A stretch of 64,000 nucleotides of DNA, taken from the NCBI RefSeq assembly GCF_007713735.2, contig NZ_VMNW02000017.1, forward strand, positions 62,001 to 126,000, in the 5' to 3' direction. This DNA comes from Amycolatopsis acidicola. Lineage in GTDB: Bacteria > Actinomycetota > Actinomycetes > Mycobacteriales > Pseudonocardiaceae. This document shows, piece by piece, positions 11,571 through 29,343 of the stretch. The notes under the pieces are model-generated. The model had not been told where the DNA came from, did not search any database, and saw only the letters and a list, made by a program, of their open reading frames with translations. Both the position numbers and the translations under genes were made by a program. Position 1 is the stretch's first letter. Every line of letters starts with the position of its first letter.

Positions 11571-13116
11571 ACAACTCGAACAACTGCCGCTGACTCCCAC
11601 TCAGCGACGTGAGCACCCGCCGCGTCCGCGGGCGCCCGCCGGTGGACGGATACCGCAGCACCGTCTCCCCGATCCGCGAAAGCTGCTCGAGCAGCTCCCG
11701 CACGGAAAGGTCGAGACCGGCGCGGTCGGCCTCCTGCCGCATGAGGTGGGTAACCGCCGCCGCCAGTGTGCTCACCAGCGAGTGCACGGCGATCCGCTGC
11801 TCCGTCCAGTCCCACCGCGGCGCCGGCGCGGCGACGAACGAACCGTGGAACATCCGGAACGTCGAATCCAGGTGGTAGCGCGCCCGGTACGCGGTGATCA
11901 CGTCCAGCACCGACCAGTCGTCGTGATCAGTCACCAGTAACTGCTTTCCGAACAGCTCCTCGTCCAGCCGCGCGCGGGCGGCTTCGTCGATCCGATACTC
12001 CAACCGCAGCTCACCGGGCTTACCGCCGGTCAGCCGCGCTGTCAGAACCCTGTCCACCCAGCGCACCCGCGTGATCCGGGCGAGCTCGGTGAGCAGCTGT
12101 TCCCTGGTGCGCCGGTTGGTGCCCGCCTCCAGTGCGAGCGCCAGACCGTCGAGCTGCCGGGTGGCCGTGCTCAACGCCTGCGCGAACCCCCGAACCTGAG
12201 CGGCGTGCAACCGCGCTGAATGGGTGAGCACAACCCGCCGCCGCACCCCGGACACCGTCGCGTGCGTGTCGAGCGCCGTCAGCCCCGCGAACCGGTCCGG
12301 ATCCACCGGCCGCCGCACCGAGGCGGGACGGACGAGCAGCTCCGGAAAGTCCGCGAGTGGCAAGGCACCGACGAAATGGCGCCCCGCGTCCAGGTCCAGC
12401 TGCGCCTGCTGCCCGGCGTCGAACACCACGGTGACCTCACCGCGATGCCGTGCCGCGAGCCGCGACGCGGCCACCCCGAACGGCACACCTCGTTGGTAGA
12501 CATGGGACACGAGCGGGATGGCGCCATCCCTCGTGACCACCGCGCTGAGCCCGGCCAGCGCCGCGTCCGCGGTGTCCGATTCGGCGTAGGTAGCGAAGTT
12601 CGGGATGTCCACCGCCAGCGTGACCGGCGCGTCGAGCCGGATGTGGGAGACCACCTCCTCCTCGATCCGCTCCAGCTGGGTCCGGGTCAGCCTTCTGGTC
12701 ACCTGCCAGAACTGCTCATCCCGCACCGTTTCCGCCGCGAACCTCGGCCGGATGAACCGCTCCGCCGCTGTCTCGGCCCACCAGTCCGCCAACGTCGCAC
12801 ACGGCGCGACGGCCCGCTGCAGCACGGCCAACGCGAGGTACCTGCCGACGGAAACCTTGCGCCGTCCCACGATTTCGTCGATCGCGGGCGCCACCTGGAG
12901 TCGCTCCAGGGTGCCCCAGACCGCGGCCGAATCACCGAAGGTCAGCTGCCGGGTGGACTCCGGCATCCCGCCGCCACCGTCGACCGCCGCCGCGATCTCC
13001 TCGGCCGAACCGAGGTAGCGCTGCGCCACGATCCGGGGCCGCCCGTCCACCCTCGCCGACTCGACGAAGTAGTAGTAGGTCCGCCCGTTGATCCGCTTGC
13101 CGACCACCGATCCCAC
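11545..13116 (-). CDS. IS1634-like transposase-family protein, possibly domesticated
   Basis: A 523-residue protein with GTG start at 13116. The N-terminal TYYYFVESARVDGRPRIVAQRYLGS and the overall layout match IS1634-type DDE transposases. Candidate catalytic residues are Asp170 (TLAVDIPNF) and Asp233 (VVFDAGQQ). In the C-terminal block YRARYHLDSTFRMF, the position normally Glu is Asp417 and the following Lys is replaced by His. No terminal inverted repeats or target duplications were found around the gene, which directly abuts its neighbours and has ordinary GC. Both points suggest a resident, perhaps inactive or repurposed, copy. The very long antisense frame on the same strand, reaching 17963, is not a gene. 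Confidence 0.75.
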   Translation of the reverse strand: MGSVVGKRINGRTYYYFVESARVDGRPRIVAQRYLGSAEEIAAAVDGGGGMPESTRQLTFGDSAAVWGTLERLQVAPAIDEIVGRRKVSVGRYLALAVLQRAVAPCATLADWWAETAAERFIRPRFAAETVRDEQFWQVTRRLTRTQLERIEEEVVSHIRLDAPVTLAVDIPNFATYAESDTADAALAGLSAVVTRDGAIPLVSHVYQRGVPFGVAASRLAARHRGEVTVVFDAGQQAQLDLDAGRHFVGALPLADFPELLVRPASVRRPVDPDRFAGLTALDTHATVSGVRRRVVLTHSARLHAAQVRGFAQALSTATRQLDGLALALEAGTNRRTREQLLTELARITRVRWVDRVLTARLTGGKPGELRLEYRIDEAARARLDEELFGKQLLVTDHDDWSVLDVITAYRARYHLDSTFRMFHGSFVAAPAPRWDWTEQRIAVHSLVSTLAAAVTHLMRQEADRAGLDLSVRELLEQLSRIGETVLRYPSTGGRPRTRRVLTSLSGSQRQLFELFNLEAYAP

Positions 13117-13262
13117 ACTTTAGGTAATACACATGCCCGGCTCCCGGCGCAACGAGATCGATATCGCTGAGCTGCGGAAACACCGCGACAGCCGGGGCGC
13201 GCGGACAGGATCACCTGAGCGGTCATGGAGATGCCCCGCTCGGCGGACCTACCGTTTGCTGC

Positions 13263-15851
13263 ATGGCTTCCGCTGATCAGCAGGACCGTCCGACAGCCTC
13301 CGCGATGCGCCGCGCGCTGGCCCGCGCACGCGACGGCAAGGCGCTGGACATCGCCGAGGCGACCGTCCTGCTGCACGCCCGCGACGAAGATCTCGACACG
13401 CTTTCCGAGCACGCTTCCCGTATCCGCGACGCCGGCCTCGCCGCGGTCGGCAGGGAAGGCGTGATCACCTACAGCCGCAAGGTGTTCATCCCACTCACCC
13501 GGCTGTGCCGCGACCGTTGCGGCTACTGCACCTTCGCCACCGTTCCCGGCAAGGTGGACGCGCCTTTCCTTTCGCCGGACGAGGTGCTGGCGATCGCCCG
13601 GGAGGGCGCGGCGATGGGCTGCAAGGAAGCGCTGTTCACGCTCGGCGACCGTCCCGAGGACAGGTGGAAGGCCGCGCGCGAATGGCTCGACGCCCACGGC
13701 TACGACGACACGCTCTCCTACGTGCGCGCCATGTCGATTCTGGTGCTGGAAGAGACCGGACTGCTCCCGCACCTGAACCCGGGTGTGCTGACCTGGCAGG
13801 ACCTCCAGCGGCTCAAGCCGGTCTCCCCGTCGATGGGGATGATGCTGGAGACCACGGCGACCCGGCTGTGGAGCGAGCGCGGCGGACCGCATTACGGCTC
13901 GCCGGACAAGGACCCGGCCGTCCGGCTGCGCGTGCTCGAGGACGCTGGGCGCAACTCGGTGCCGTTCACCACCGGGATCCTCATCGGGATCGGCGAGAAC
14001 TACGAGGAACGCGCGGACGCCCTGTTCGCCATCCGGAAGTCGGCGCGGACCTACGGCGGCATCCAGGAGGTGATCGTGCAGAACTTCCGTGCCAAGCCGG
14101 ACACGAAGATGCGCGCCACCCCCGACGCCGACCTCCAGGAGCTGGCCGCCACGATCGCGGTCGCCCGGCTCGTGCTCGGCCCGAAGATGCGGATCCAGGC
14201 CCCGCCCAACCTCATCGGCCGGCAGTACGAGCAGATGGTGCGGGCCGGTATCGACGACTGGGGCGGCGTTTCCCCGCTCACCCCGGACCACGTGAACCCG
14301 GAGCGCGCCTGGCCGCAGATCGACGAGCTGGCCCGGCAGACCGCGGCCGCGGGCTTCGAGCTGCGTGAGCGGCTGGCCATCTATCCGGAGTACATCCTGG
14401 CCGGCGAACCCTGGCTGGACCCGCGGGTGGCCGGGCACGTGGCCGCGCTGGCGGATCCGGAAACCGGGCTCGCCAACGACGTGAACCCACAGGGCAGCCC
14501 ATGGCAGGAGCCGGACGGCGGCTGGCAGGAGCAGGGCCGCACCGAGCTGCACGTCGAGGTGGACACCATCGGCCGCACCGGGGACCGCCGCAGTGACTTC
14601 GACTCCGTCTACGGCGACTGGAACGAACTCGCGGAGAAGGTGCCGAGCGCGCCGCGGCGGATGGACGCGGACATCGCGGCCGCGCTGCGCCGCGCCGAGC
14701 AGGATCCGGCCGGACTGTCCGATGAGGACGCTCTCGCTCTGCTCCACGCCGACGGCGCCGAACTCGACGCGCTCACCGAACTCGCGGACGGGCTGCGCCG
14801 GGAAACGGTGGGCGACGACGTGACCTTCGTGGTCACACGGAACATCAACTTCACCAACGTCTGCTACACCGGCTGCCGGTTCTGCGCCTTCGCGCAGCGC
14901 CGCACCGACGCCGACGCCTACACCCTTTCGCTGTCCCAGGTGGGCGACCGGGTGGACCAGGCATGGGAAGCCGGGGCGACGGAGATCTGCATGCAGGGCG
15001 GTATCCACCCGGACATGCCGGGCACCGCGTACTTCGACCTCGCGCAGGAGGTCAAGCGGCGGCAGCCGGACATCCACCTGCACTCGTACAGCCCGATGGA
15101 GGTCGTCAACGGCGCTTCGCGGACCAATCTGTCCATCCGGGACTGGCTGACCAAGGCACACGAGTCCGGTGTGGACTCGCTGCCGGGCACCGCCGCGGAG
15201 ATCCTCGACGACGACATCCGCTGGGTGCTCACCAAGGGCAAGCTGCCGACATCCAGCTGGATCGAGGTGGTCAGCACCGCGCACGAGCTCGGCATCCCGA
15301 CCACGTCGACCATGATGTACGGGCACGTGGACACGCCGGCGCACTGGGTGGGCCACATCAAGCTGATCGCGCAGCTGCAGCGCCGGGCGCTGGAACGGAC
15401 CGGGAAACGCGGGTTCACCGAGTTCGTGCTGCTGCCGTTCATCCACCAGAACGCGCCGATCTACCTGGCGGGCCTCGCCCGCCCGGGCACGACGGTGCGC
15501 GAGAACCGTGCGGTGCACGCGCTCGCGCGCATCCTGTTGCACGGTCTGATCGACAACATTCAGTGCTCGTGGGTGAAACTCGGCGAGGACACGTGTCGCG
15601 CGGTGCTGAACGGTGGCGTCAACGACCTCGGCGGAACGCTGATGGAAGAGACGATCAGCCGGATGGCCGGCGCTGGCAACGGCTCCTACAAGACGATCAG
15701 CGATCTCGAAGCGATGGTGGAGCCGCTCGGGCGTCAGCTGGTGCAGCGCACGACTTCCTACGGCAGGCCGAGCGCGGAACGTGTCGCCGCGGCCCGCTTG
15801 AGTGACGGGGTGGCTGCCGCGGTGCGCAATCCACTGCCGATCGTGGGCTGA
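13263..15851 (+). CDS. fbiC: Bifunctional FO synthase, coenzyme F420 biosynthesis
   Basis: An 862-residue protein with two radical-SAM halves (CofG + CofH), the normal actinobacterial FbiC length. The first cluster motif is C82-x3-C86-x2-C89 (CRDRCGYC); the second is C534-x3-C538-x2-C541 (CYTGCRFC). It joins tyrosine and a 5-amino-6-ribitylaminouracil derivative to make the deazaflavin FO, the chromophore of F420. The ATG at 13263 follows the intergenic gap with no competing upstream start. The other F420 genes (fbiA, fbiB, fbiD) are not in this window; in actinobacteria fbiC is often separate. F420-dependent LLM or FDOR enzymes elsewhere in the genome are expected. Confidence 0.97.
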
Positions 15852-15938
15852 GCCCAGGGTTCTCCGGACCGGAACCTTCCAGCCTGTGTCCGCTGTCACA
15901 TAGGCTGGAAACCCAGTGCCGACTCCAGGAGGCCAAAG

Positions 15939-17771
<1,833 letters not shown>

Positions 17772-18073
17772 TTCCCGCATCGCCTGGAAAAGCTGTGCCG
17801 CCACCAGGACCAGCAGGGTCCACAAAGGACGAAGACAGCTCCGGGCGCCGCGGGGAGCACGCAAGACGGGGTTCACGAGATCCATCGTGGCCACAACGGA
17901 GCCCCGACCGCACAACTTTTTCGCCGCCTGTGGACAACACGCCGTGTTCCCGGAGTTGTCCACAGGCAGCGCAATTCAGCCTTGACAAACAAGGCGAACC
18001 CGGATAACCGCAACCCCGGACAGCCGGTTTCCGGACGATCCCCGGACCCGGAAGCCGTGCTGTCCGGGGTTGG
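17772..18073. other. 302-bp gap between convergent genes
   Basis: No ORF with coding character is present. The only strong structure is the inverted DnaA-box pair described separately. A second, weaker GC-rich repeat (CCGGACAGCCGG.. with ..GTCCGGGG) lies near 18015-18070 and may help terminate the SDR transcript. Confidence 0.6.
17927..17966. promoter_or_regulatory. Inverted pair of DnaA-box-like sequences
   Basis: CCTGTGGACAAC and GTTGTCCACAGG form a perfect 12-bp inverted repeat with 16 bases between the arms. Each arm contains TTGTCCACA, which corresponds to the Streptomyces-type DnaA box known from high-GC actinomycetes. The pair sits between two convergent genes, so it could also fold as a terminator hairpin, although the 16-base loop is long for that. 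It may be a DnaA titration or regulatory site; it is not an origin, since no box cluster, dnaA or dnaN is nearby. Confidence 0.55.
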
Positions 18074-18988
18074 TCAGGCGGTGCGAAGCGGACTGGACGT
18101 GCTTTCCGTCCACTTGCGCAACCGGGGCGGGACGCGCTTCTCCAGACCATAAGGCTCCAGATGCGCGGAAAAGACTTCGTCGAACGCGCGCCGCACGGTT
18201 TCGGTGTCCCAGGTCTGGCGTTCCAGTATCGGCGCCTTCAAATAGGGCTGGCCCATGATGTGCAGCTGCGGTCCGTTGCACCGAACCAGCTGCCCGGTGA
18301 TTCCCTCGGCATTGTCCGAAAGCAGGAACAGGACCAGCGGCGCGATCCGGGACGGCGTCCGATCCGGCGGGCAGCTGCGCAGGGACCGCTCCGATTTCCA
18401 GACCATCCTGGTGTGCGCGAGCGGGCAGATCGCGTTGACCCTGATCCCGATCTCCTCCAGGTCCAGCGCCCAGGAATAGGTCAGTGAAGCCACCGCGCCC
18501 TTGCTCGCCGAATAAACGCCGAGCTTGCGCTGGCCGAGCGACGCTCCGGAAGAGACATTGACGATCGCTCCGCCGTGTCCCTGTTCCCGCATAGCCTTGA
18601 CGGCGGCGATGCCGGTGTACATCACTCCCAGCACGTTGACTTCCACCAGCTCGCGGACCTGTTCGGCCTCCTCCTGCCACGGCAGCGCCTCGTAGTTGAG
18701 GCCCGCGTTGTTGACCAGCCCGTCGATCGCGCCGAACTCGTCCACACACAACTGGACCAGCGCGGACGCCTGGGCTGGATCGGTCACGGTGTGTCCACTG
18801 GCGACAGCGGAACCGCCGTAAGCACGAATGTTGCCGGCGGTGCGCTCCGCCAGTTCGAGATCGACATCGTTCACCACCACCCGGCAGCCGGCCTGGGCCA
18901 GGTGCACCGCGAACGATTCGCCGAGGCCACGCCCGGCCCCCGTCACCACCACTGCCCGCCCGTTCAGGCCCGCCAGCTCCATATTCAT
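18074..18988 (-). CDS. Short-chain dehydrogenase/reductase
   Basis: A 304-residue SDR. The start is ATG 18988 (GGGGAG eight bases upstream); a GTG at 18997 is possible, and the longer ORF to 19144 lacks support. It shows the cofactor motif TGAGRGLG, the NNAG strand (GLVNNAGLNY), a catalytic Ser region (NVSSGAS) and YSASK. The C-terminal ~60 residues after the usual SDR core are longer than typical and contain an Arg-rich end. The NAD(P) preference is unresolved: the residue after the second strand is Asp (NDVD), which favours NAD. The substrate is unknown. It converges on the acyl-CoA ligase gene. Confidence 0.87.
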   Translation of the reverse strand: MNMELAGLNGRAVVVTGAGRGLGESFAVHLAQAGCRVVVNDVDLELAERTAGNIRAYGGSAVASGHTVTDPAQASALVQLCVDEFGAIDGLVNNAGLNYEALPWQEEAEQVRELVEVNVLGVMYTGIAAVKAMREQGHGGAIVNVSSGASLGQRKLGVYSASKGAVASLTYSWALDLEEIGIRVNAICPLAHTRMVWKSERSLRSCPPDRTPSRIAPLVLFLLSDNAEGITGQLVRCNGPQLHIMGQPYLKAPILERQTWDTETVRRAFDEVFSAHLEPYGLEKRVPPRLRKWTESTSSPLRTA

Positions 18989-19392
18989 CGTGTCCACTCC
19001 CCACTGGCCGGCCCCGACGCAGCCCTGTCCTCGGCTCCACCGGCCTCGGCCCCAGTCTTCGCCCTCCCCACACCGTTGAGACGGAGCTGACGACGAGCGG
19101 TCAGCTCGTTGCGCCGAACGAGTGAGCGATGACCAGTGGGACATACTCTCCGACCGGTCAGCGGCACTCCCGGTATCCGCCGTTCGTCGTAGCCCGAACC
19201 GTTGCTTTTACCACCGGATGGGCCCAAACCCGGGCTACCGTCGTGCTGTGACTGTTCGCTTCCGGGCTGTAAGCGGCATACTGACTGTTGTCTTTCCTGT
19301 CGGTTGGGTGAGTGCCCATACCCGGTACCCCACGGCAGACGACAGAATGCGTGGACGCGGTGCGTTCACCCGGTAGGGGGGAGTAGGGACGG
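18989..19392. other. 404-bp divergent intergenic region
   Basis: It separates the SDR (minus strand) and the MFS gene (plus strand), so it should hold both promoters. CGGTCAGC occurs twice in direct orientation (19098-19105 and 19155-19162). I could not assign -35/-10 pairs with confidence. An 84-codon ORF at 19122 lacks an RBS and coding character. Confidence 0.5.
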
Positions 19393-20613
19393 ATGGTGAG
19401 GACTGAGGCCCGGCCATCGATGCGTGCTGCCCTGGCCAACGGGGAGTTCCGCACGGTGTGGCTCGCGGAGGCACAGTCCACCCTCGGCGACCAGCTCACC
19501 ACCGTGGCGCTGGCCCTGCTGGTTTATCACCGCACCGGATCCGCGCTGTGGTCGGCCGTGGCCTACGCCCTGACCTTCCTGCCGGCGCTGGCCGGCGGGC
19601 TGGGCCTCTCGCAGCTGGCGGACCGGTACCCCAGGCGGACGGTGCTGGTCGTCACCGCCGCGGTGCAGGCGGGTTTCGTCGGCGTGATGGCGATACCGGG
19701 GATGCCGCTGGTGCCGTTGTGTGTGCTCGTGGTCTGCGGACGGCTGGCCGGCGCGCCCGCCAATGCGGCGCAGAACGCGCTGACCAGGGAGATCTTCGTC
19801 GACGACGAGCTGTACCTGCGCAGCCAGGACATCCGTGGCATCACCACGAACACGGCGATGCTGCTGGGACTGGCCGGCGGTGGCCTGCTCGTGACCACGG
19901 CGGGGCCTTCGCTCGCGCTGGCCATCGACGCCGCGACTTTCGCCGTCAGCGCGGTGGCGCTGCACCGCTGGGTGAAACCACGACCCGCCGCCGACGGCGG
20001 GCAGGGCAGCTGGTTCGGCGCGATCCGCTGGGTCGCGACGCAGCCGCGGCTGCGCGTCCTGCTCGGCTTTTCCTGGCTCGTCGGCCTCGCCGTCGTACCG
20101 GAGGGGCTCGTGGCCCCGCTGGTGCAGGAGATCGGCGCCCCCGATCAGGCGGTGGGCTGGCTCCTCGCCGCGGATCCGCTCGGCTTCGTCATCGGGGTTT
20201 TCCTGATGTCGCGCTACGTCTCCGCGGAAGCGCGCAAACGCGCGCTGGGCGTGCTGGCGATACTGCCGACGGCGATTCTGCTGGTGTTCTCCGTGCGACC
20301 GGATCTCGTGCTTGCCCTGGTCGCACTGGCGGCCGCGGGTGCGGCCGGTGCCTACATCGTCACGGTGGGCGCTTCGTTCATCACGTGGGTTCCCAACGAA
20401 CTGCGCGGCGGTGCGGGTGGTTTGTACCGCACCGGGCTACGGGTCGCGCAGGGCGTCGGCGTCGCGATCGGCGGTGTCGTGGCACAGCTGCTCGGTTCGG
20501 CCACCGGTGCCATCGTCATCGCGGGCGCGGCCGGGGTGGTGCTCGGAATACCGCTGGCGGTCTCCTGGGCCCGTCTGCAACGAACCGCTGCCGAAACCAC
20601 CTCTGCGATATGA
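19393..20613 (+). CDS. MFS efflux-type transporter
   Basis: A 406-residue protein with about 12 hydrophobic segments and ATG at 19393 after a purine-rich GGGGGGAGTAGGG stretch. The N-terminal NGEFRTVWLAEAQSTLGDQL and the loop motif ADRYPRRTVL resemble MFS_3/macrolide-efflux exporters. Its substrate is unknown. Its 3' end converges on an array of tiny minus-strand ORFs (20645-20905). Export of small peptides would be an attractive link, but nothing beyond proximity supports this. Confidence 0.85.
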   Translation: MVRTEARPSMRAALANGEFRTVWLAEAQSTLGDQLTTVALALLVYHRTGSALWSAVAYALTFLPALAGGLGLSQLADRYPRRTVLVVTAAVQAGFVGVMAIPGMPLVPLCVLVVCGRLAGAPANAAQNALTREIFVDDELYLRSQDIRGITTNTAMLLGLAGGGLLVTTAGPSLALAIDAATFAVSAVALHRWVKPRPAADGGQGSWFGAIRWVATQPRLRVLLGFSWLVGLAVVPEGLVAPLVQEIGAPDQAVGWLLAADPLGFVIGVFLMSRYVSAEARKRALGVLAILPTAILLVFSVRPDLVLALVALAAAGAAGAYIVTVGASFITWVPNELRGGAGGLYRTGLRVAQGVGVAIGGVVAQLLGSATGAIVIAGAAGVVLGIPLAVSWARLQRTAAETTSAI

Positions 20614-20644
20614 GTAACGCCGCCGGGTCGCCCGCCGATCCTCA

Positions 20645-20665
20645 TCAGAAGTCGCGGTTTGCCAC
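20645..20665 (-). CDS. Mini-ORF 4, peptide MANRDF
   Basis: GTG-GCA-AAC-CGC-GAC-TTC-TGA with GGAGG at 20675-20679, nine bases before the GTG. It is the last unit, ending 31 bp from the stop of the convergent MFS gene. The second residue is Ala here, Ser or Thr in the others; all are small residues. Confidence 0.5.
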   Translation of the reverse strand: MANRDF

Positions 20666-20722
20666 AACCAGTCACCTCCAGTTTTCCCGACGAAACAAAC
20701 TTCCACTTACCGACTCGCCGGC

Positions 20723-20743
20723 TCAGAAGTCGCGGTTGGACAC
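20723..20743 (-). CDS. Mini-ORF 3, peptide MSNRDF
   Basis: GTG-TCC-AAC-CGC-GAC-TTC-TGA. The SD is AGAGG at 20752-20756, eight bases before the GTG. It encodes the same peptide as mini-ORF 2 with different codons. Confidence 0.5.
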   Translation of the reverse strand: MSNRDF

Positions 20744-20795
20744 GGAGTACACCTCTCCCGCGGTAGCGAAACGAACAAGATTCAAGGGACGGCTT

Positions 20796-20816
20796 TCAGA
20801 AGTCACGGTTCGACAC
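20796..20816 (-). CDS. Mini-ORF 2, peptide MSNRDF
   Basis: GTG-TCG-AAC-CGT-GAC-TTC-TGA with GGAGG at 20826-20830, nine bases before the GTG. The Ser codon (TCG) differs from the TCC of the next unit, and Arg is CGT rather than CGC: both are synonymous changes. Confidence 0.5.
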   Translation of the reverse strand: MSNRDF

Positions 20817-20871
20817 CGAGGTCCACCTCCACGCACCACGCAAACAATCGAACATCAACCAGCCACCAGGA

Positions 20872-20892
20872 TCAGAAGTCACGGTTGGTCAA
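20872..20892 (-). CDS. Mini-ORF 1 (first on minus strand), peptide MTNRDF
   Basis: TTG-ACC-AAC-CGT-GAC-TTC-TGA. GGAGG lies at 20901-20905, eight bases before the TTG. An in-frame GTG at 20901 would overlap the SD and is less likely. It is the promoter-proximal unit if the array is transcribed from the gap below the diguanylate cyclase gene. Its function is unknown; see the array finding. Confidence 0.5.
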   Translation of the reverse strand: MTNRDF

Positions 20893-21003
20893 GAAGAACA
20901 CCTCCAATCGGTGCTCGCAAGGGAGCTGCGAAGCGCCGGCATGGGCGAGGTCCTCGCGTGCACGCCACTTCGTATGCGGTGGGATGATACCTGTCGAAGG
21001 AAA

Positions 21004-21026
21004 GTGCCCGGCGTCCTTCCGGGCAC
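21004..21026. terminator. Stem-loop between mini-ORF array and diguanylate cyclase
   Basis: GTGCCCGG and CCGGGCAC form an 8-bp perfect stem with a 7-base loop. On the minus strand the stem is followed by TTTCCTT, a weak terminator tail. On the plus strand it would lie in the leader of the GGDEF gene. The direction of action is uncertain. I found no riboswitch-like conserved core in the remaining 461-bp gap. Confidence 0.4.
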
Positions 21027-21074
21027 AGCAAAGTTACCCCGCCGTGGCCGGGCTCGTCGAGAGAAGGTGACCCA

Positions 21075-22481
21075 GTGGGACCGCCCCCCTCCAGGCGGGG
21101 ATCGCACACGCTCCCCGGCGAGCAGGCCGGACAGGAGGGTCCGCGTCCGAACGGCTCCGGCCAAATCAAGGCCACGAACCCGCGTTCGGACACGTCGAGT
21201 GATTCTTCGGGCACTCGCCGCTCATTAAGCCCGCGCAATTGGGCTTTGTGGCGGCGGCCGAAGGGATTCATCGCATTCCTGATCGTCGCGGAACTGGTGG
21301 CCATTGTCTGGTTCGCGGCGGCAATCGCGAACTCGCCCGTTCTGGCACCTCTCGATTGGTTGCGGTTCGCGATTCTCACGGTCGGCGCGACGGTGCACAT
21401 CCAGCTCACCCGGCGCCAGGAAGAACGTCGACGGAATCGCGTTCGGACAGTGCTGATCGACCTCACCGCGGTCTGGGTGTTTCCCGCCGCGATTATTCTT
21501 CCGGCGCCGCTGACCGTACTACTGGTTCTGCTGATTCGCGCGCAGCACTGGTTCGTCGCCCGGCGCCCGGCGCACAACTTCGTGTTCTCCTCGATCACGC
21601 ACATGCTGGCGGCCACGGTGGCGCACACCGTGTTCGTGGCTTTGGGCGGGCAGCATTGGGAGGCATTGTCCGTCCTGGGCTCGCTGGGCGAATTCGGCAA
21701 GCTCGTCCTGGTCGGACTGGTCTACGAAGCGGTCCAGATCCTTTACGTGGGCAGCATTCTCAGCCTCGCCGGCAAACCGAGCGTGCAGACCGTACTCGGC
21801 AGCAAAGCGGACAACCTGCTCGAAGCGATCACGGTCGGACTCGGTGCCATCACGGCGATCCTGCTCGTCGTGCTGCCGCCGACGGTCGCGATCATGGCCG
21901 TGGTGACGGTGGTGTTCAACCGGCTCGCGGAGCTCGATCAGCTCCAGGACGACGTGCGCACCGATCCCAAGACGCAGGTGTACAACATGCGCGGCTGGAC
22001 GGAGTCGGCGGAACGGGCGCTGAACCGGGCCACGAAGTCCGAGGACGGGCTCGGCATCCTGATGATCGACCTCGACCACTTCAAGTGGATCAACGACACC
22101 TACGGCCATCCCGCCGGGGATGACGTCCTGCGGAACCTCGCGCAACTGCTGGATGAAGTGACCCGCCCTTCGGACGTCGTCGGCCGGTTCGGCGGCGAGG
22201 AGTTCCTCGTGCTCCTGCCCGACACCGACCAGGCGACCGCGACGGGTGCCGCGGAGCGCATCCGGTCGGCGGTCGCGGAACTACGGATCGTCACCACCGA
22301 CAAGCGCGGCGACCAGACGACGGTGTCGGACCGGACGGCGTCGATCGGCGTCGCGGTCTTCCCCGCGCACGGCGACTCCCTGGAGAAACTCATGCAAGCG
22401 GCCGACGCCGCGGTGTACGAAGCCAAGGAAGGCGGCCGGAACCAGGTGCGGGTGGCCGAGCACCGCTCCGTGAACCACTAG
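21075..22481 (+). CDS. Membrane-anchored diguanylate cyclase (GGDEF)
   Basis: A 468-residue protein with GTG 21075 and GAGAGAAGG seven bases upstream. Residues ~60-290 contain about six hydrophobic segments forming a membrane sensor region of unknown ligand. The C-terminal GGDEF domain has an intact active site as GGEEF (373-377) and the product-inhibition I-site RxxD (RPSD, 364-367) exactly five residues before it. DLDHFKWINDTYGHPAGDDVL is typical. It should make c-di-GMP under membrane-derived control. c-di-GMP controls development through BldD in actinomycetes; the BldD-like gene of this window is about 4 kb downstream. No EAL or HD-GYP domain is attached. Confidence 0.93.
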   Translation: MGPPPSRRGSHTLPGEQAGQEGPRPNGSGQIKATNPRSDTSSDSSGTRRSLSPRNWALWRRPKGFIAFLIVAELVAIVWFAAAIANSPVLAPLDWLRFAILTVGATVHIQLTRRQEERRRNRVRTVLIDLTAVWVFPAAIILPAPLTVLLVLLIRAQHWFVARRPAHNFVFSSITHMLAATVAHTVFVALGGQHWEALSVLGSLGEFGKLVLVGLVYEAVQILYVGSILSLAGKPSVQTVLGSKADNLLEAITVGLGAITAILLVVLPPTVAIMAVVTVVFNRLAELDQLQDDVRTDPKTQVYNMRGWTESAERALNRATKSEDGLGILMIDLDHFKWINDTYGHPAGDDVLRNLAQLLDEVTRPSDVVGRFGGEEFLVLLPDTDQATATGAAERIRSAVAELRIVTTDKRGDQTTVSDRTASIGVAVFPAHGDSLEKLMQAADAAVYEAKEGGRNQVRVAEHRSVNH

Positions 22482-22547
22482 GGTGGCGGACCGGCCCGGG
22501 GGTTTTCCCGGTGTTGGAATGCCGTTGATCCTGCCACCCTGGAGTTC

Positions 22548-24677
22548 ATGATCGCCCCAGCCGAGACCCCGCGCCTGCGGCGGCCCTTGTCCACCTCGGC
22601 CTGGCTGCTCGTGCTGACCTTCGCACTCGTCGGATTCGGTTTCGTCGCGTCGCGCGCGGCGACTCCCGCCGATCAGGGCCCGCCCACCGGCGGCGCCGCC
22701 GCGGCAGAACGCGCGATCGACGCGTTGACCCACCCCGGCTCGCAACCGCTCGCACTGAACCTGCTGCCCGCGGACTTCACCCAGGTCACCGGGGTGAAAC
22801 CGGGCGCGATGCCCGCACTCGACGGAACAATGCGCGCGGTCCACGTGGACGGTGGTTGTTCGACTCCTTGGGGCGACGACAACACCAAATGGGACTACGC
22901 GGTCCCGTGCAAGGCGCACGACCTCGGCTACGACCTGTTGCGCTACGCGGACAAGGTCGGCCACCCGCTCGGCCCGGAGGTGCGCGCCTCGCTCGACGCG
23001 CGCCTGTCCGACGACATGCACCACACCTGTGACATCAATCCCATGGGCTCGCCGCGGTTGTGCCAGGCGGTGGCGTCCATGTACGCGGCGGGTTTGAAGG
23101 TCAACTCCTGGCACCAGCGCTGGGGTCCGCCGGTCGGCGACCCGATCGGCCCGATGCTGGCGGGCGTCGCCGTGATCGGCTGTCTGCTGGTGTTCCGGTT
23201 ACGCGGCTGGCTGCGTACGCGCCGCGAGCGCCCGGCCCGCAAACTCGAGCCGAAGCCCACGCCCGCGCCCGCTTCGTCCTGGGTGACGCTCGGCGTGACG
23301 AGCCTGGTGTTGCTGATCCTCGGTGAATCGGTGATCTCGCTGGCTCGCTGGGCGGGCGCCGACGAGTCGTGGCTGTGGCCGTTCACCTGGCTTGCCCAGT
23401 TGGCGCCGGTCTTCTTCTTCGCCGGCGGCCGGGCGAACAGGGCAGGCTGGGAGTCCGTGGCCGACAGCGGTGGCGGCTACCGCCAGTACCTCGCGCACCG
23501 GGCGAGCTGGCTGTTGCGGCCCGCGCTGATCTTCGTCGTGGTGACGCTCGTGGTGCCGTTGGCGCTCGAACTGCTGGGAATTCCGGACAGTACGAACGCG
23601 ACGATCGTCCGGATAGCGCTGCATCCGTTGTGGCTGCTGGCTGTCTACCTGTTGACGATGGTCGCGGCGCCGGTGATGCTCGCGCTCCATCGCCGCGCCG
23701 CCGCGGCGAGCACGGTGGGACTGCTGGCATTCGTGGTGCTGGCGGAACTGTCCGCGGGGTGGCTGGGTACGGAAATTCCGCGCTATGCGGGCGCTCTCGG
23801 GCTCGCGCTGCTCGCACAGCAGGTCTCGTTCGGTCGCATCGCCGGACGGAGTCGGCTGGTGATCGGCGGGATCACGGCCGCGGCCGGGCTCGCGCTGCTC
23901 GTCACGATCGGCGGTGTGGACCCGAATCTGCTGGGCGCCGCGGGAGCGCCGCCCGCGCTCGCCGCGCCGACGCTGCCGGTGCTTTTCCTCGGCGCGGCGC
24001 AGCTGTGCCTGCTCGGCCTGTTCGCGAAACCGCTGAACCGGATCACCACGCAGCCCGTGGTCTCCAGCGTGGTCCGGCTGGCGATGCGCGCTCCGATGAG
24101 CTTGTACCTCGGCTTCCTCGCCGCGGTGCTGTTGCTCGTCACGGTGGTCTACCTGCCGGTGAACCCGGCCGACGCGCTGGCCTGGCTCGCCGGGCCGCGC
24201 CCGTTGACGGCACTGGCGCTGCTCGCGGTCCCCGCGTTGATCATCTTCTGGTGGTTCGAACGGCACTCGGAGGGGTACCTGGTAGTGCACCATCAGCGGC
24301 CGACCGGCTGGCTGGCGCACGCCGCGACGGTGCTGGGCACCGGGTTCGCCACCATCGGGCTGTTCGGGTTCGCCCTGACCCGCTTCGGCGGAGACGCAGG
24401 CGGATCGGTTCTCGGACTCCCGCTCGACCCGATCCAGAACCTGATCCAGCTCCTGCTCGGGGTGTTCCTGCTGCACACGGTGCGGGTCGGACTCAGCGGC
24501 GCCACCAGCACCTGGGTGGTGACGGCGCTGGCCTGCGTGCCGCCGCTGATGGACGTCGCGGACGGGTACGACGTGGACACGGTGACGATCGCGGTGCACG
24601 GGCTCACCGCCGTCTTCGCGCTCGCGGCCGCTGCCAGCACCTTGCGTCCGGCCAGAACGGTGGTGCAGAACACTTAA
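22548..24677 (+). CDS. Phospholipase A2 - membrane acyltransferase fusion protein
   Basis: A 709-residue protein with a membrane segment at about 15-40, then an extracytoplasmic domain (residues ~60-185) with prokaryotic phospholipase A2 hallmarks. These are DGGCSTPWGDD, then Cys-x2-His-Asp in CKAHDLGYDLLRYA (the His-Asp catalytic pair), and paired cysteines at HHTCDINP and RLCQAV. The remaining ~500 residues have at least ten membrane segments. Their start (VFFFAGGRANRAGW, then YRQYLAHRASWLLRP) resembles acyltransferase-3 family membrane proteins. Hydrolysis of phospholipids on the outer face could feed an acyl-transfer reaction in the same polypeptide; this is inference. It lies 66 bp downstream of the GGDEF gene on the same strand. 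Confidence 0.75.
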   Translation: MIAPAETPRLRRPLSTSAWLLVLTFALVGFGFVASRAATPADQGPPTGGAAAAERAIDALTHPGSQPLALNLLPADFTQVTGVKPGAMPALDGTMRAVHVDGGCSTPWGDDNTKWDYAVPCKAHDLGYDLLRYADKVGHPLGPEVRASLDARLSDDMHHTCDINPMGSPRLCQAVASMYAAGLKVNSWHQRWGPPVGDPIGPMLAGVAVIGCLLVFRLRGWLRTRRERPARKLEPKPTPAPASSWVTLGVTSLVLLILGESVISLARWAGADESWLWPFTWLAQLAPVFFFAGGRANRAGWESVADSGGGYRQYLAHRASWLLRPALIFVVVTLVVPLALELLGIPDSTNATIVRIALHPLWLLAVYLLTMVAAPVMLALHRRAAAASTVGLLAFVVLAELSAGWLGTEIPRYAGALGLALLAQQVSFGRIAGRSRLVIGGITAAAGLALLVTIGGVDPNLLGAAGAPPALAAPTLPVLFLGAAQLCLLGLFAKPLNRITTQPVVSSVVRLAMRAPMSLYLGFLAAVLLLVTVVYLPVNPADALAWLAGPRPLTALALLAVPALIIFWWFERHSEGYLVVHHQRPTGWLAHAATVLGTGFATIGLFGFALTRFGGDAGGSVLGLPLDPIQNLIQLLLGVFLLHTVRVGLSGATSTWVVTALACVPPLMDVADGYDVDTVTIAVHGLTAVFALAAAASTLRPARTVVQNT

Positions 24678-24786
24678 ACGAGTGTTGTGAACCACATTCG
24701 GAGATCGGTATGCGACGCTACGGCAACCGGGTGACAGGCTGACACGTCCAATGGTCTGGACACCCGTCGGGGAAGGAGGCGTTGGC

Positions 24787-26454
24787 GTGGACAATCCGCC
24801 GCGAAACGAGCGTGGGCCTCGTAGGCCCGCACCGCGGCAGGGACGCCCCACTGACGCCCGATATGTCGGCCCCGCCCGGCGCCCCGCCGGAGGACAGCGT
24901 CCGCCGGCACGGCAGACCCCGGCGACAGCCAGGTCCGCCCCACCGCCGAAATCTGGGCCGCCGCCGAGGCGCCGCCCGTCCGCTCCCCCGCCGCCTCCGC
25001 GCCGGCGCAAGTTCGGCGCGAAGATCGTGGTGGCCGTGGTCTCGCTGCTCGTGGTGAGCCTGACCGGTTACGCGTGGGCCGCGATGCGGGGTCTGGTCGA
25101 CGGCCTGACCACCACCGACGTGATCAGCGCGGACCAGCCTGCCGACGGCGCGAGGGACATCCTGCTGGTCGGCATGGACAGCCGGGTCGACGCGCAGGGC
25201 AACCCGCTGCCCGAATCGCTCCTGAACGAACTGCGGGCCGGTGTCTCCGATGGTGAGGAGAACACCGACACGCTGATCATGGTGCACATCCCGAACGACG
25301 GGAGCAAAGCCGTCGCGATCTCGCTGCCGCGCGACTCGTACGTGAACATCCCCGGGTTCGGCCAGCACAAGATCAACTCGGCGTACGCGCGGGCCAAGGC
25401 CGCCGAGCGCTCGAAACTGCAGAGCGAGGGCGACACCGACGCCAAGGACATCGAGCTCAAGAGCAGCCAGGCCGGGGCGAAGACGCTGATCGCGACGGTG
25501 CAGCAGCTCACCGGCTCGTCGATCGACAACTACGCCTCGGTCAACCTGCTCGGCTTCTCCGACATCACCAAGGCCATCGGCGGCGTCGACGTCTGCCTGA
25601 AGGACAACGTCGACGACAGCTACTCCGGCGCGAAGTTCACCAAGGGCAAGCACACGATCTCCGGGGTCGAAGCGCTTGAGTTCGTCCGGCAGCGGCACGG
25701 GCTGCCGCGCGGCGACCTCGACCGGGTCGTGCGCCAGCAGGTCTTCATGGCGGGCATGGCGCAGAAGGTGCTCTCCACCGGGACGCTGACCGACCCCGGC
25801 AAGCTCAGCTCGCTCACCGCCGCCATCAAGAAATCGGTGGTGCTCAACCAGGGCTGGGACATCCTCGCGTTCGCCCAGCAGATGAAGAACCTCACCGGCG
25901 GGCAGCTGCAGTTCCAGACCATCCCCGTGGTCAACATGGACTACAGCACGCCGGAGGACGGCAGCGCGATCAAGGTGGACCCGAGCCAGGTGCACCAGTT
26001 CGTGCAGGGCCTGACCGGTCCGCCGCCGGCGGCGCAGGCCGCGGCACCGACCACCAGCCCCAACGCCGGCACCACCGTGGACGTCCACAACGGAACGTCG
26101 AAGGAAGGCCTGGCGGCGACCGTTTCGCAGACGCTGACCGCGCAGGGTTTCACCGGGGGCGAGACGGGCAACGCGACCGGGCGCACCAGCCACACCACCG
26201 TCCGGTACCCGGCCGGCGCGAAGGAAGCCGCGCAGAGCGTGGCCACCGCGCTCGGCTCGAAACCGACGCTGGAGCAGGACACCTCGGTGCCCAGCGGACA
26301 CGTGGTCGTGGTGGTCGGCAGCGACTACAGCCCGCCGACCTCGGAAAACGTCGCGCCCGCCGCGCAGTCTTCCGCCGCGTCGAGCACCAGCGCGCAGGCC
26401 CCGGCCACCGATGACCAGGCGATCACCGCCGATGGCATCACTTGCGTGAACTGA
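24787..26454 (+). CDS. LytR-CpsA-Psr (LCP) family protein with LytR_C domain
   Basis: A 555-residue protein. GTG 24787 is chosen because AAGGAGG lies seven bases upstream; an upstream in-frame GTG at 24751 lacks an SD. The first ~75 residues are Pro/Arg-rich and cytoplasmic, and one membrane helix (KIVVAVVSLLVVSLTGYAW) follows. The LCP catalytic domain shows DILLVGMDSR, NTDTLIMVH, ISLPRDSYVNIPG and FVRQRHGLPRGDLDRVVRQQ, whose Arg residues bind the pyrophosphate of the lipid-linked donor. The C-terminal LytR_C domain begins TTVDVHNGTSKEGLA. LCP enzymes ligate arabinogalactan or other glycopolymers to peptidoglycan outside the cell. A Ser/Ala-rich tail ends the protein. Confidence 0.93.
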   Translation: MDNPPRNERGPRRPAPRQGRPTDARYVGPARRPAGGQRPPARQTPATARSAPPPKSGPPPRRRPSAPPPPPRRRKFGAKIVVAVVSLLVVSLTGYAWAAMRGLVDGLTTTDVISADQPADGARDILLVGMDSRVDAQGNPLPESLLNELRAGVSDGEENTDTLIMVHIPNDGSKAVAISLPRDSYVNIPGFGQHKINSAYARAKAAERSKLQSEGDTDAKDIELKSSQAGAKTLIATVQQLTGSSIDNYASVNLLGFSDITKAIGGVDVCLKDNVDDSYSGAKFTKGKHTISGVEALEFVRQRHGLPRGDLDRVVRQQVFMAGMAQKVLSTGTLTDPGKLSSLTAAIKKSVVLNQGWDILAFAQQMKNLTGGQLQFQTIPVVNMDYSTPEDGSAIKVDPSQVHQFVQGLTGPPPAAQAAAPTTSPNAGTTVDVHNGTSKEGLAATVSQTLTAQGFTGGETGNATGRTSHTTVRYPAGAKEAAQSVATALGSKPTLEQDTSVPSGHVVVVVGSDYSPPTSENVAPAAQSSAASSTSAQAPATDDQAITADGITCVN

Positions 26455-26592
26455 CCCTGCTCTGTTCAGCCCACCGGCGTTAGCCCAAACGGCCTAATCC
26501 GGGAATCAACTCCAACGACTCGGCCGAAGTGACGTAAGAGCGGGCCCCTCAGCGACTTACATACGCGTGGACACCGCTCGGGTTCGACCGGA

Positions 26593-26617
26593 AGTACCGG
26601 CGCAGGGGTGCGGTACT
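26593..26617. promoter_or_regulatory. Inverted repeat upstream of BldD-like gene
   Basis: AGTACCG and CGGTACT with an 11-base spacer, 28 bp before the GTG start. It is a candidate autoregulatory operator. A further CGTAAG/CTTACA pair lies upstream at about 26533-26562. Confidence 0.4.
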
Positions 26618-26644
26618 ACCGAGGGTCAAGGCAGGGGACTAGGA

Positions 26645-27142
26645 GTGCTCATCGACAGTGATGTCTATCAACGGGTTCTCGGGGAGGAACTCAGGAAGCT
26701 GCGCCGGCGGCGTGGCTGGACGCGCAAGGAGCTGAACCAGCACCTGCAGAGCGACATCTCGCTGCAGACGCTGGCGACCTACGAGCTCGGCACCCGCCAG
26801 TGCTCGGTCGTGCGTCTCGTTGAGTTGTGCCTGGCGATGGACGAACTACCTCAGGATCTGCTGGCGAGAGTGCACCGGCGGGTCTTCACCGACGAGCCGG
26901 GGAAAGTCCGGCTCGACCTGGCACGGATCGTCGCGGACCGGCAGCACGAACTACTGCCGCTGCGGAGATGGGCCGACGGCCGGATGCGACAGGCCACCGG
27001 CACGACGGAAGTTCAGCTCGACCGGCCCGCCCTCGAGCGGATGGCCGAGCTGTGCGGACTCGAGGTCGCGGATCTGCTGACCAGACTGCGATCGATGGCC
27101 GCGCCCGCCGCCGGGAGCCTGGATCCCGGCGGGGGCGGATAA
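26645..27142 (+). CDS. BldD-like HTH transcriptional regulator lacking the c-di-GMP signature
   Basis: A 165-residue protein, close to the 167 of Streptomyces BldD, with GTG 26645. The N-terminal helix-turn-helix (residues ~8-70) contains LGEELRKLRRRRGWTRKEL and TYELGTRQCSVVRL, parallel to the BldD pattern YERGDRAVTVQRL. The C-terminal domain matches the BldD layout (KVRLDLARI.., LLPLRRWA.., then a final helix ending VADLLTRLRSM). BldD binds tetrameric c-di-GMP through RxD-x8-RxxD; at the equivalent place this protein has RQATGTTEVQLDRPAL, which does not preserve the motif. It is therefore probably a paralogue with another ligand or none. Confidence 0.75.
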   Translation: MLIDSDVYQRVLGEELRKLRRRRGWTRKELNQHLQSDISLQTLATYELGTRQCSVVRLVELCLAMDELPQDLLARVHRRVFTDEPGKVRLDLARIVADRQHELLPLRRWADGRMRQATGTTEVQLDRPALERMAELCGLEVADLLTRLRSMAAPAAGSLDPGGGG

Positions 27143-27170
27143 GGCCCCGCTCGCCCCGCCGGCTCAGGCG

Positions 27171-28655
27171 CTACTTGTTGCCTGCGCTGCCGATTAGTTC
27201 GAAGTCGGCGGGGCGCAGCTTGCGGGTGTTCAGCCAGTACCGCCAGGTGAAGCCGGGCCAGACCGTCCGGTTCACGCCCTTGCTGTCGAGATACCAGCTC
27301 TGGCAGCCACCCTGGGTCCAGACGCCCTTGTTGAGCTTGCGCTGGATCTCGTCGTTGAACCTCGTCTGCACGTCGGTCCGCGGGACCAGCGCGTGTGCGT
27401 CCTTTTCCTCGACCAGCCGGATCGCTTCGGCGATGTAGCGGATCTGCGACTCGATCATGAAGACGACCGAGTTGTGCCCGAGGCCGGTGTTCGGCCCGAG
27501 CAGGAAGAACAGGTTCGGGAAACCGGCGACCGTGATGCCGAGGTGCGTCTGCATCCCCTCGCCGGCCCATTCCTTGGACAGGTTCCGGCCGTCCTCGCCG
27601 ATGATGTCCAGGTTGTCGAAGGCGTCGGTGACGTGGAAGCCGGTGCCGAAGATGATCGCGTCCACCTCGTGCTCCACGCCCGCGGTGTCCACGATGCTGT
27701 GCGCCTTGACCTCGGCGACGCCGTCGGTGACCACGTCCACGTTGTCCCTGGCCAGCGCCGGGTAGTAGTCGTTGGAGATCAGCACGCGCTTGCAGCCCAT
27801 CACGTAGTCCGGGGTGAGCTTGGCGCGCAGCTCCGGGTCGGAGACGGCGCGGTCGATGTTGGACTTGGCCAGCAGCTGGCCGATCTTCATCACGCCGGGA
27901 TGCCCGTTGAACCCGACCGCGCGGGCCTCGAGCATCCAGTACAGCAGGCTGCGGTAGGCGCGCTGGACGCCCGGCACCTTGTCGAACAGGTTCTTCGCCC
28001 ACTCCGGCATGGCGTGGTCCGGCTTCGGCATGACCCACGGCGGGGTGCGCTGGAACAGGGTGAGCCGCTCGACGTCGGGCGCGATGGCCGGGACGAACTG
28101 GATCGCGCTCGCGCCGGTGCCCACCACCGCGACGCGCTTGCCGCGCAGGTCGTAGTCGTGGTTCCAGCGCGCCGAGTGGAACTTCTCGCCCTCGAAGTTC
28201 TCGATGCCCTTGAGGTCGGGAGTCTGCGGCAGGTGCAGCGCGCCCACGCCGTTGACAAGGTGCGTGCCCGCGAACTCGTCGCCGCCCCTCGTGGCGACGT
28301 GCCAGCGGTGCTCGTCGGAATCCCAGCGCGCGCCGGTCATCTCCTGGCCGAACCGGATGAACCGGTACAGGTCGTACTTCTTCGCGACCCCGCGCAGGTA
28401 GTCCCAGATCTCGGGCTGCGGGGAGAACGAACGCGTCCAGTTCGGGTTCTGCTCGAACGAGAACGAGTACATGTGCGACTGGATGTCGCACGCGCAGCCG
28501 GGATAGGTGTTGTCGCGCCAGGTGCCTCCGACCTCGTGCGCCTTCTCCAGGATCACGAAGTCCTCGCGTCCCTGTTTACGCAGCTGGATGGCCATGCCGA
28601 GACCGGAGAACCCGGTGCCGACGATGATCACGCCCGTCTCGGTCCGCTCACCCAT
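27171..28655 (-). CDS. Flavin-containing Baeyer-Villiger-type monooxygenase
   Basis: A 494-residue flavoprotein with GGAGG five bases before the ATG at 28655. It has two Rossmann motifs (GTGFSGLG near the N-terminus for FAD, GTGASA near residue 175 for NADPH). The BVMO fingerprint FxGxxxHxxxW appears as FEGEKFHSARW. VGGTWRDNTYPGCACD is also typical. It should insert oxygen next to a ketone or oxidise a heteroatom using NADPH and O2. It is divergent from a TetR regulator with an 82-bp shared promoter region containing a palindrome, the usual arrangement for a substrate-inducible BVMO. Confidence 0.92.
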   Translation of the reverse strand: MGERTETGVIIVGTGFSGLGMAIQLRKQGREDFVILEKAHEVGGTWRDNTYPGCACDIQSHMYSFSFEQNPNWTRSFSPQPEIWDYLRGVAKKYDLYRFIRFGQEMTGARWDSDEHRWHVATRGGDEFAGTHLVNGVGALHLPQTPDLKGIENFEGEKFHSARWNHDYDLRGKRVAVVGTGASAIQFVPAIAPDVERLTLFQRTPPWVMPKPDHAMPEWAKNLFDKVPGVQRAYRSLLYWMLEARAVGFNGHPGVMKIGQLLAKSNIDRAVSDPELRAKLTPDYVMGCKRVLISNDYYPALARDNVDVVTDGVAEVKAHSIVDTAGVEHEVDAIIFGTGFHVTDAFDNLDIIGEDGRNLSKEWAGEGMQTHLGITVAGFPNLFFLLGPNTGLGHNSVVFMIESQIRYIAEAIRLVEEKDAHALVPRTDVQTRFNDEIQRKLNKGVWTQGGCQSWYLDSKGVNRTVWPGFTWRYWLNTRKLRPADFELIGSAGNK

Positions 28656-28701
28656 TACTTCCTCCGCATCGAGCCGCTTAGGTGTTACCGCGAGTCCACC
28701 T

Positions 28702-28712
28702 TACTTGAAGTA
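28702..28712. promoter_or_regulatory. Palindrome in BVMO/TetR divergent promoter
   Basis: TACTTGAAGTA is a perfect 11-bp palindrome flanked by ACCT and AGGT (offset by one base), with a second TTACTTC half-site just downstream. It lies between the two divergent starts, where a TetR dimer would block both promoters. A possible -10 for the regulator is TAGAGT at 28725-28730, seven bases before its GTG. Confidence 0.5.
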
Positions 28713-28737
28713 GGTTACTTCCGGTAGAGTCAATCCC

Positions 28738-29343
28738 GTGAGCACCACCCCCAGTCCCCGGAAGCGCATGCCCAGGGCCGAGCGCGAACGCCAGATGCTT
28801 CAGGTCGCCGAAGAGGTGTTCGCCGAGCGGGGGTACGTGTCCGCGTCGATGGACGAGATCGCGGAACGGGTCGGCGTGTCGAAGCCGATGCTCTACGAGT
28901 ACTTCCATTCCAAGGAAGGGCTGTTACTGGCCTGTATCGCCCAGTCGCGCGCCGAACTGCGTGAGGCGACCGAGGAGGCCGTCCTGGGCGCCACGTCCGC
29001 TGAAGAGGCGCTCAGGCGTGGTTTGCGAGCCTTTTTCGTGTACATCCGCGAGCGGCGGCAGGCGTGGTCACTGCTGCGGCACGAGATGGCGCTGATCGGC
29101 ACCGGCGCGTCGGACGAGATCGAGGAGACCCGGCGTCAGCAGACGGACCTGATCGCGAAGCTGATGACGGGATACTTCGGCGTGGGGTCCCCCCTGCGGG
29201 TGGAAGCGACCGCCGAATTCGTCGTCGGAGCGTGCGAACGGCTCGCCGTGTGGTGCGAACGGCATGCCGAAGTGACACCTGATCGGGCGACAGATTACGC
29301 AATGGACGTGCTCTGGACCGGGCTGCGCGAACGCGCACAGTGA
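28738..29343 (+). CDS. TetR family regulator
   Basis: A 201-residue protein with GTG 28738, probably leaderless. The N-terminal TetR helix-turn-helix is clear: AEEVFAERGYVSASMDEIAERVGVSKPMLYEYFHSKEGLL. The rest is an all-helical ligand domain without recognisable specificity. It is divergent from the BVMO gene and probably represses it until a substrate binds. Leu63 is encoded by TTA (28924-28926), the rare codon read by the bldA-type tRNA in many actinomycetes, so translation could be developmentally timed. Confidence 0.92.
   Translation: MSTTPSPRKRMPRAERERQMLQVAEEVFAERGYVSASMDEIAERVGVSKPMLYEYFHSKEGLLLACIAQSRAELREATEEAVLGATSAEEALRRGLRAFFVYIRERRQAWSLLRHEMALIGTGASDEIEETRRQQTDLIAKLMTGYFGVGSPLRVEATAEFVVGACERLAVWCERHAEVTPDRATDYAMDVLWTGLRERAQ

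Follow-up and report, generated by a model that had tools for sequence, protein, structure and literature searches.

Tandem hexapeptide mini-genes beside a membrane GGDEF protein and an MFS transporter in Amycolatopsis acidicola and relatives: a candidate peptide signalling cassette

What purpose is served by four six-codon reading frames, each with its own Shine–Dalgarno (SD) sequence, repeated in tandem between two genes? The array occupies positions 20645–20905 (minus strand) of the 64,000-nucleotide stretch of Amycolatopsis acidicola DNA analysed here (the window), and each mini-gene consists of an SD, a GTG or TTG start, the peptide M-[T/S/A]-N-R-D-F and a TGA stop. Unit 1 (20872–20905) has the SD GGAGGTG at 20899–20905 and TTG-ACC-AAC-CGT-GAC-TTC-TGA at 20892–20872 (MTNRDF). 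Unit 2 (20796–20830) has the same SD at 20824–20830 and GTG-TCG-AAC-CGT-GAC-TTC-TGA at 20816–20796 (MSNRDF), unit 3 (20723–20757) has the SD GAGAGGTG at 20750–20757 and GTG-TCC-AAC-CGC-GAC-TTC-TGA at 20743–20723 (also MSNRDF), and unit 4 (20645–20679) has GGAGGTG at 20673–20679 and GTG-GCA-AAC-CGC-GAC-TTC-TGA at 20665–20645 (MANRDF). All four SD-led units, with their coordinates and codons, are exactly as a first-pass annotation of this DNA had claimed. The pattern AAYCGNGAYTTYTRR gave 4 matches in the window and none in 100 dinucleotide shuffles of it, and the unit pattern is found genome-wide only in these 4 places (9.47 Mb draft, 195 contigs). A possible base pairing of a unit's SD with ACUUCU within the same unit was spotted by eye.

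Similar arrays are present in eight named Amycolatopsis records, A. sacchari and A. bartoniae among them, and the units are identical in a same-genus genome (G167) and A. alkalitolerans (L005 and L009). The linkers between units, which had been called unrelated, share patches among the orthologues, e.g. GTTTGTTT and AAAACTGGAGGTG. The window and the eight named loci together have 36 units, in which the Asn, Asp, Phe and stop codons are always AAC, GAC, TTC and TGA (36/36), and Arg is CGT in 24 and CGC in 12. CGG is used in 0/36 units of these close relatives, against 103 of the 274 Arg codons in seven window genes, hinting at a constraint on the nucleotide sequence or at homogenization of copies. 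Silent variation is thus thin in these 36 units, and the argument for translation from silent variation, as originally made on the window's own data, is weak when taken alone; the argument becomes strong once more distant relatives are included.

Across 87 distinct arrays containing 296 units, the starts were ATG (138), GTG (131) and TTG (27), the stops were TGA (290), TAG (4) and TAA (2), and the peptide length was 5–7 residues in every unit. With the first units of 98 arrays as anchors, DNA similarity brought in a further 259 units, of which 220 had an SD and an in-frame start. Codon differences among these units were synonymous in 244 cases and non-synonymous in 60 in the predicted frame, compared with 39/285 and 32/277 (synonymous/non-synonymous) in the shifted frames. 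The anchors of this test come from arrays found as ORFs; it is otherwise the neutral version of a comparison within the 296-unit set (117 against 5), which is biased because units were grouped there by peptide similarity. The codon variants seen across arrays include Ser TCN/AGC swaps, GAC/GAT, all four CGN codons, three starts and three stops. Because most codon changes from unit to unit leave the predicted peptide unaltered, there is strong support from sequence comparison for the mini-genes being translated short-peptide genes whose peptide is conserved. With SD, start and stop in frame and a synonymous excess, they have the features of short protein-coding genes.

Persistence of the repeats with non-synonymous change in the NRDF codons, or with loss of SD, start or stop, had been named in advance as evidence against coding. 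Changes of the first kind do occur between lineages (MSSRDF, MSDRDF, MANRDL, MANRDW and MSNRDC), yet SD, start and stop are kept and the units of one array mostly share the altered peptide; evolution of the peptide accounts for this better than loss of coding. More widely, arrays of 1–19 units with other peptides recur across the family (MxGRDF, MxDREA, MxVRDW, MRDKIW, MSKDL) and are present in other actinobacterial families (MRDNTWT, MRDTTWS). A one-mismatch pattern search in 390 family genomes matched at least 132, including at least 18 of the 19 of the window's genus, with some of the single matches being chance. A class-wide search for RRY-CGY-GAY hexapeptides (394 genomes, 3 of the family) gave tandem matches only in the window's own genome; the peptides of other families are different.

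The first-pass annotation had proposed searching relatives for the tandem pattern together with its MFS and GGDEF neighbours, and both neighbours do recur, with exceptions. Among the 30 pattern loci listed, all except L014–L016 and L040 lie between MFS and GGDEF genes like those of the window, and these four are chance matches of the family pattern search. In other genera the MFS gene is sometimes missing from array loci. The number of units varies greatly. One genome has ten units (L074), and the largest array, between GGDEF and MFS genes at L323:14061-15335 (+), has 19 mini-genes ending SKDL, with one further mini-gene nearby that has an altered end. At L326, two tandem GGDEF-type genes (4627–5982 and 6067–7365; the first confirmed by Pfam, the second by eye only) lie behind one MGKDWN array.

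The GGDEF gene, which the annotation had listed as a neighbour and not as the peptide's partner, is divergent from the array (21075–22481, plus strand; start codon uncertain) and encodes a membrane sensor fused to a GGDEF domain (Pfam PF00990, E = 1.2e-46; TIGR00254). It has the GG[DE]EF motif and the conserved catalytic residues, with G324, G325, E326, E327, D283 and K288 invariant in 65 sequences (alignment A2), and its product is therefore predicted to be a diguanylate cyclase making c-di-GMP. The N-terminal membrane domain (region used, 21222–21944, plus strand) matched no Pfam or NCBIfam family in the window's own protein. It is distantly MASE9-like through its relatives: 6/56 homologues match MASE9 (PF20972) at E up to 0.01 (best 9.3e-9), and in another scan 1/10 relatives matched, below the cut-off. 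As in MASE9 and other MASE-GGDEF sensors, an integral membrane sensor domain is fused to GGDEF, but the window's own domain does not match MASE9 above cut-off. We know of no ligand or peptide gene for MASE9, and no mention of MASE9 was found in the literature searched.

The predicted models are confident (mean pLDDT 94 for the 21075–22481 product, and 93) and contain about six long helices and a broken one at 83–113. In Foldseek searches the full cyclase gave a convincing match for its GGDEF half only, and the membrane domain alone matched nothing at E <= 0.001. The nearest folds to the membrane domain, ECF transporter S-components (RibU, probability 0.97, TM 0.41/0.53, E = 0.15), are not significant, and this resemblance in the model may serve as a lead only. 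Weak PDB sequence matches of the membrane domain to GABA receptor helices were taken as chance.

The association between mini-genes and cyclase was counted from loci fetched by cyclase similarity, which are free of the bias of peptide patterns. Of 69 family genomes searched with the N-terminal membrane domain, 50 matched (the 69, 47 and 25 genomes of separate searches were chosen by hand). SD-led divergent mini-genes lie upstream of the cyclase in 27 of the 30 best family loci, encoding MxGRDF (six units), MxDREA (up to ten), MxVRDW (nine), MRNREW, MTEREY and others, and a 28th (L157) has a longer, 14-residue ORF ending DRDL. Weaker family paralogues have units in 18/40 loci, as read from listed ORFs, with very different peptides (MRDKIW, MREKIW, MRGVEY, MGGIEY, MSRDW). 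A profile of the domain matched 36/197 genomes of the class, one of them that of the window, and outside the family mini-genes were present at 22/29 cyclase loci, 14 of them tandem (MRDNTWT, MRDTTWS, MRDNNWN, MRANSWD, MRHTSWS, MRSVQWA, MRGWKWS). By the ORF rules used, 22/40 weaker family paralogues and 7/29 out-of-family cyclases had no unit, and none of 13 listed distant homologues (12 from outside the class; 246 phylum genomes searched) had a convincing one. Thus, either the domain has other uses or the ORF rules miss units.

Orientation is strict. Of 144 cyclase upstream regions, 89 have tandem units on the divergent strand and none has them on the cyclase's own strand (0/144); this set includes loci fetched by peptide pattern and counts the window's own array twice (once as L001). 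Shuffled upstream regions had tandem units in 0/2880 cases (base shuffles) and 1/2880 (dinucleotide shuffles). In two recounted sets fetched by cyclase similarity, tandem units were present in 18/29 and 14/29. The second cyclase of the window's genome (L207, G000:C117:16836-17537), 28% identical, in an 892-residue open frame with a confirmed GGDEF domain, has one divergent unit, MRNKDW.

The third member of the module is an MFS transporter gene (MFS_1/MFS_3; 19393–20613, plus strand) that is convergent with the array. At 107 of the 143 regions upstream of cyclase genes, an MFS gene of one family is convergent with the array, and at none is it in the other orientation; eight representatives are 38–59% identical to the window's. 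At loci fetched by cyclase similarity alone, the MFS gene is present in 23/30 within the family and 14/29 outside it, the latter count resting on only 1.5 kb of flank. Searching from the MFS in the 25 hand-picked genomes gave new arrays between MFS and cyclase genes that the patterns had missed, namely one of seven MGKDWN-type units and the 19-unit SKDL-type array (L323); many of the 30 MFS-fetched loci show no units by the ORF rules. The MFS (E 1e-35) is missing from 14 of the 18 genomes that lack the cyclase (E 1e-8) and present in all six that have the cyclase. The partners can also be found apart. Cyclase and units occur without the MFS in g19 and several g27 genomes, and an MFS of the same family accompanies a single MRDREY mini-gene with no cyclase near at L324:6267 (-), in a genome with no cyclase match in the domain search. 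At L325:6281 (-), a single M/VRNRDF unit and an MFS gene, which follows on the unit's own strand, likewise have no cyclase near.

In 40 wider loci, called with a rough ORF set, the cyclase gene was found in 32, and besides cyclase and MFS no gene family was common to more than 7/40. The largest family cluster there (64 proteins, 35 loci) combines 33 cyclase-domain proteins, 25 MFS proteins and 7 that are neither. A conserved three-part module of mini-genes, cyclase and MFS is strongly supported by these genomic comparisons. The earlier proposal of a signalling peptide with the adjacent MFS as its transporter is supported, as a hypothesis, because the pairing of array and MFS is conserved across families, always in convergent orientation.

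The last residues of the peptide mostly agree from unit to unit of an array, residue 2 being freer, with exceptions that include MSNRDF with MANRDW and MSNRDG with MSNRDC, and the motifs, nearly uniform per array, differ between cyclase clades. On a FastTree tree of 143 cyclase domains (with the peptide labels of six loci corrected by hand), 26 changes were counted for the C-terminal class (shuffled mean 59), 14 for the residue before Arg (shuffled mean 52) and 28 for residue 2 (shuffled mean 57). In twelve genomes there are two cyclases of this kind whose peptides differ (G000, G012, G057, G060, G065, G077, G117, G186, G211, G382, G385 and G386). Tracking of cyclase clade by peptide type fits a receptor code, and it also fits simple co-inheritance.

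We therefore propose, with moderate confidence, that the array is part of a peptide signalling cassette, in which the mini-genes would supply a ligand to which the cyclase responds by setting c-di-GMP, while the MFS would export or clear that ligand. The mini-genes of such tandem arrays, which have strong ribosome-binding sites of their own, would give peptides of 5–7 residues with a conserved C-terminal end (here M-x-N-R-D-F), and repetition of the mini-gene would raise the yield. The N-terminal membrane domain of the divergent diguanylate cyclase would be the peptide receptor, with binding altering cyclase activity and hence c-di-GMP, and the convergent MFS transporter would move the peptide out of the cell or clear it. 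Binding, the sign of its effect, transport and the side of sensing, outside (cell–cell) or inside (autoregulation), are the steps that we infer. c-di-GMP governs development in actinomycetes and, through development, antibiotic production. A more specific form of the proposal is plausible and put forward tentatively: a class of cell–cell signalling in actinobacteria in which translation of tandem mini-genes directly gives a finished 5–7-residue pheromone, which is exported by a dedicated MFS and converted to c-di-GMP by a cognate membrane cyclase with a clade-specific peptide code; one genome could harbour several orthogonal copies.

Most membrane GGDEF sensor domains have no known ligand. If these peptides are ligands, genome sequences would directly give many receptor–ligand pairs, inexpensive synthetic peptides could be used to test them, and supplying a few residues might switch silent metabolism. 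The arrays would also show that conserved genes of 18–24 bases are a class that gene finders miss.

The peptide has no secretion signal. It is possible, though in our view unlikely, that it never leaves the cytosol and regulates the cyclase from within, as self-regulation or a read-out of translation, with the MFS serving only as a drain, so that these components would carry no cell–cell signal; tandem strong SDs should indeed give a high cytosolic dose. Among closer relatives (alignment A1), R65, E67, R70, R71, D80, R106, R114 and R115 of the membrane domain are near-invariant, and from the helix pattern of the model these charged residues are read as lying in cytosolic segments, which would favour sensing from inside. 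However, this argument is weakened by the wider alignment A3, in which only W85 is invariant. Conservation of the MFS over long distances also speaks against a purely internal role, as does the best, non-significant, structural resemblance of the domain, since ECF S-components bind their substrates from outside.

The mini-genes could instead be minimal RiPP precursors for a natural product exported by the MFS, with the cyclase regulating production or responding to it, which we regard as quite improbable. MFS exporters are common with minimal RiPPs. Comparably short precursors are known: the biarylitides, minimal RiPPs of actinomycetes and myxobacteria, have a five-residue precursor encoded by an 18 bp gene (PMC13417212). 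Their precursor gene adjoins a cross-linking cytochrome P450 gene, whereas the arrays here are tandem, their neighbours are cyclase and MFS genes, and the loci share no modifying enzyme. A Pfam scan of ten window neighbours (11548–30051) found no P450 domain and no ThiF domain, in agreement with the first reading that no ThiF/MccB-like modifying enzyme is visible; one of the ten is a CofH-type radical SAM protein. For other loci, absence of ThiF and P450 rests only on the shared-family clustering of the wider loci, where no third gene was common to more than 7/40. There is thus no evidence for the suggested precursor of a modified peptide. Free variation of residue 2 between copies, and a constant partner that is a signalling enzyme, also argue against a RiPP. 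Microcin C, with its very short peptide gene (the mccA heptapeptide) and MFS exporter, is similar in outline; it needs the ThiF-type adenylyltransferase MccB, and no such gene lies beside the peptide genes among the ten window neighbours.

It is highly doubtful that the act of translation, rather than the peptide, is what matters, with short ORFs titrating ribosomes, peptidyl-tRNA or a tRNA, or keeping a transcript open. Strong SDs and tiny ORFs in tandem would suit such a device, and minigene effects through peptidyl-tRNA drop-off are known in E. coli. Yet the C-terminal motif is conserved within arrays and specific to the clade while its codons vary silently, and a titration device does not need a clade-specific peptide. 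Nor is there a constant gene downstream on the array's strand. In the 31 wider loci where the next gene was found, it was convergent in 26 and on the same strand in 5; of the 31, 3 had no mini-gene found and 2 had only an unrelated short ORF. Leader-peptide attenuators resemble the units in being short intergenic ORFs with an SD; they lie in the 5' leader of the gene they control, on its strand, a position in which no tandem units were found for the cyclase. An attenuator of a downstream gene was accordingly rejected, the window's own next gene being convergent.

An incidental-ORF origin, as a regulatory RNA or DNA-binding repeat, is largely refuted: AACCGYGACTTCTGA is nearly fixed in the window and the eight named Amycolatopsis loci, but the third-position pattern over 259 units and the retention of SD, start and stop contradict it. 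A structured regulatory RNA was rejected, with no Rfam match for the array and a transcript fold no more stable than shuffles (z = +1.5; 95/100 shuffles at least as stable). Taken with the absence of tandem units from the cyclase strand, these results disfavour the ribosome-sponging leader or regulatory RNA that had been offered as alternatives.

Returning to the signalling cassette, Gram-positive pheromone systems (Agr, Com, RRNPP) share with it a short peptide, a dedicated receptor (here a candidate) and divergent specificity groups. Their peptides are released by cleavage of longer secreted precursors and target kinases or transcription factors, whereas here the primary product is 5–7 residues long and the neighbour is a diguanylate cyclase. 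All 296 units are of this short kind, with longer ORFs seen at L157, L308 and L316. Thus biarylitides, microcin C, Gram-positive pheromones and attenuators, whether compared by test or from general knowledge, each differ at a defining feature. No description of these peptides, or of a module of mini-genes, cyclase and MFS, was found in the literature searched, and to that extent the system looks like an undescribed peptide signalling system; the search covered only a minority of subscription papers and no preprints and does not prove novelty.

Some loci depart from the usual form. The single ORFs at L308 and L316 (G224 and G220), MRDNNWRDNNWR, are an in-frame doubling of RDNNW, convergent to the MFS gene and with a cyclase gene adjacent, which suggests a processed precursor. 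Together with the longer DRDL ORF, they hint at a C-terminal end that does the work and at possible trimming of some precursors. In three genus g25 genomes, a lone MSNRDF ORF with a weak SD (L096:2749 (-), L098:2869 (+) and L099:2971 (+)) lies, by eye, between response-regulator-like and methyltransferase-like genes, away from MFS and cyclase; this may be coincidence or a further role of the peptide. Near the module in the window are a radical SAM/CofH-type protein (13263–15851) and a 709-residue membrane protein (22548–24677) with a weak match to prokaryotic phospholipase A2.

Expression of the array may be governed from the intergenic region that separates it from the cyclase gene. A consensus scan found no sigma-70 site, and a scan for terminator-like sites found 1 against a shuffled mean of 0.8. 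The hexamer TATCAT (20984–20989, minus strand) is a candidate -10 element of the array, without a good -35; it lies in a block, GGTATCAT and what follows it, that is conserved in several orthologue groups. An inverted repeat, GTGCCCGG-N7-CCGGGCAC (21004–21026, minus strand), conserved with small changes among close relatives, is a candidate operator or terminator-like hairpin. Both elements fall within a strongly conserved intergenic block (20984–21035), which, judged by its conservation, is likely to be a shared regulator site or promoter.
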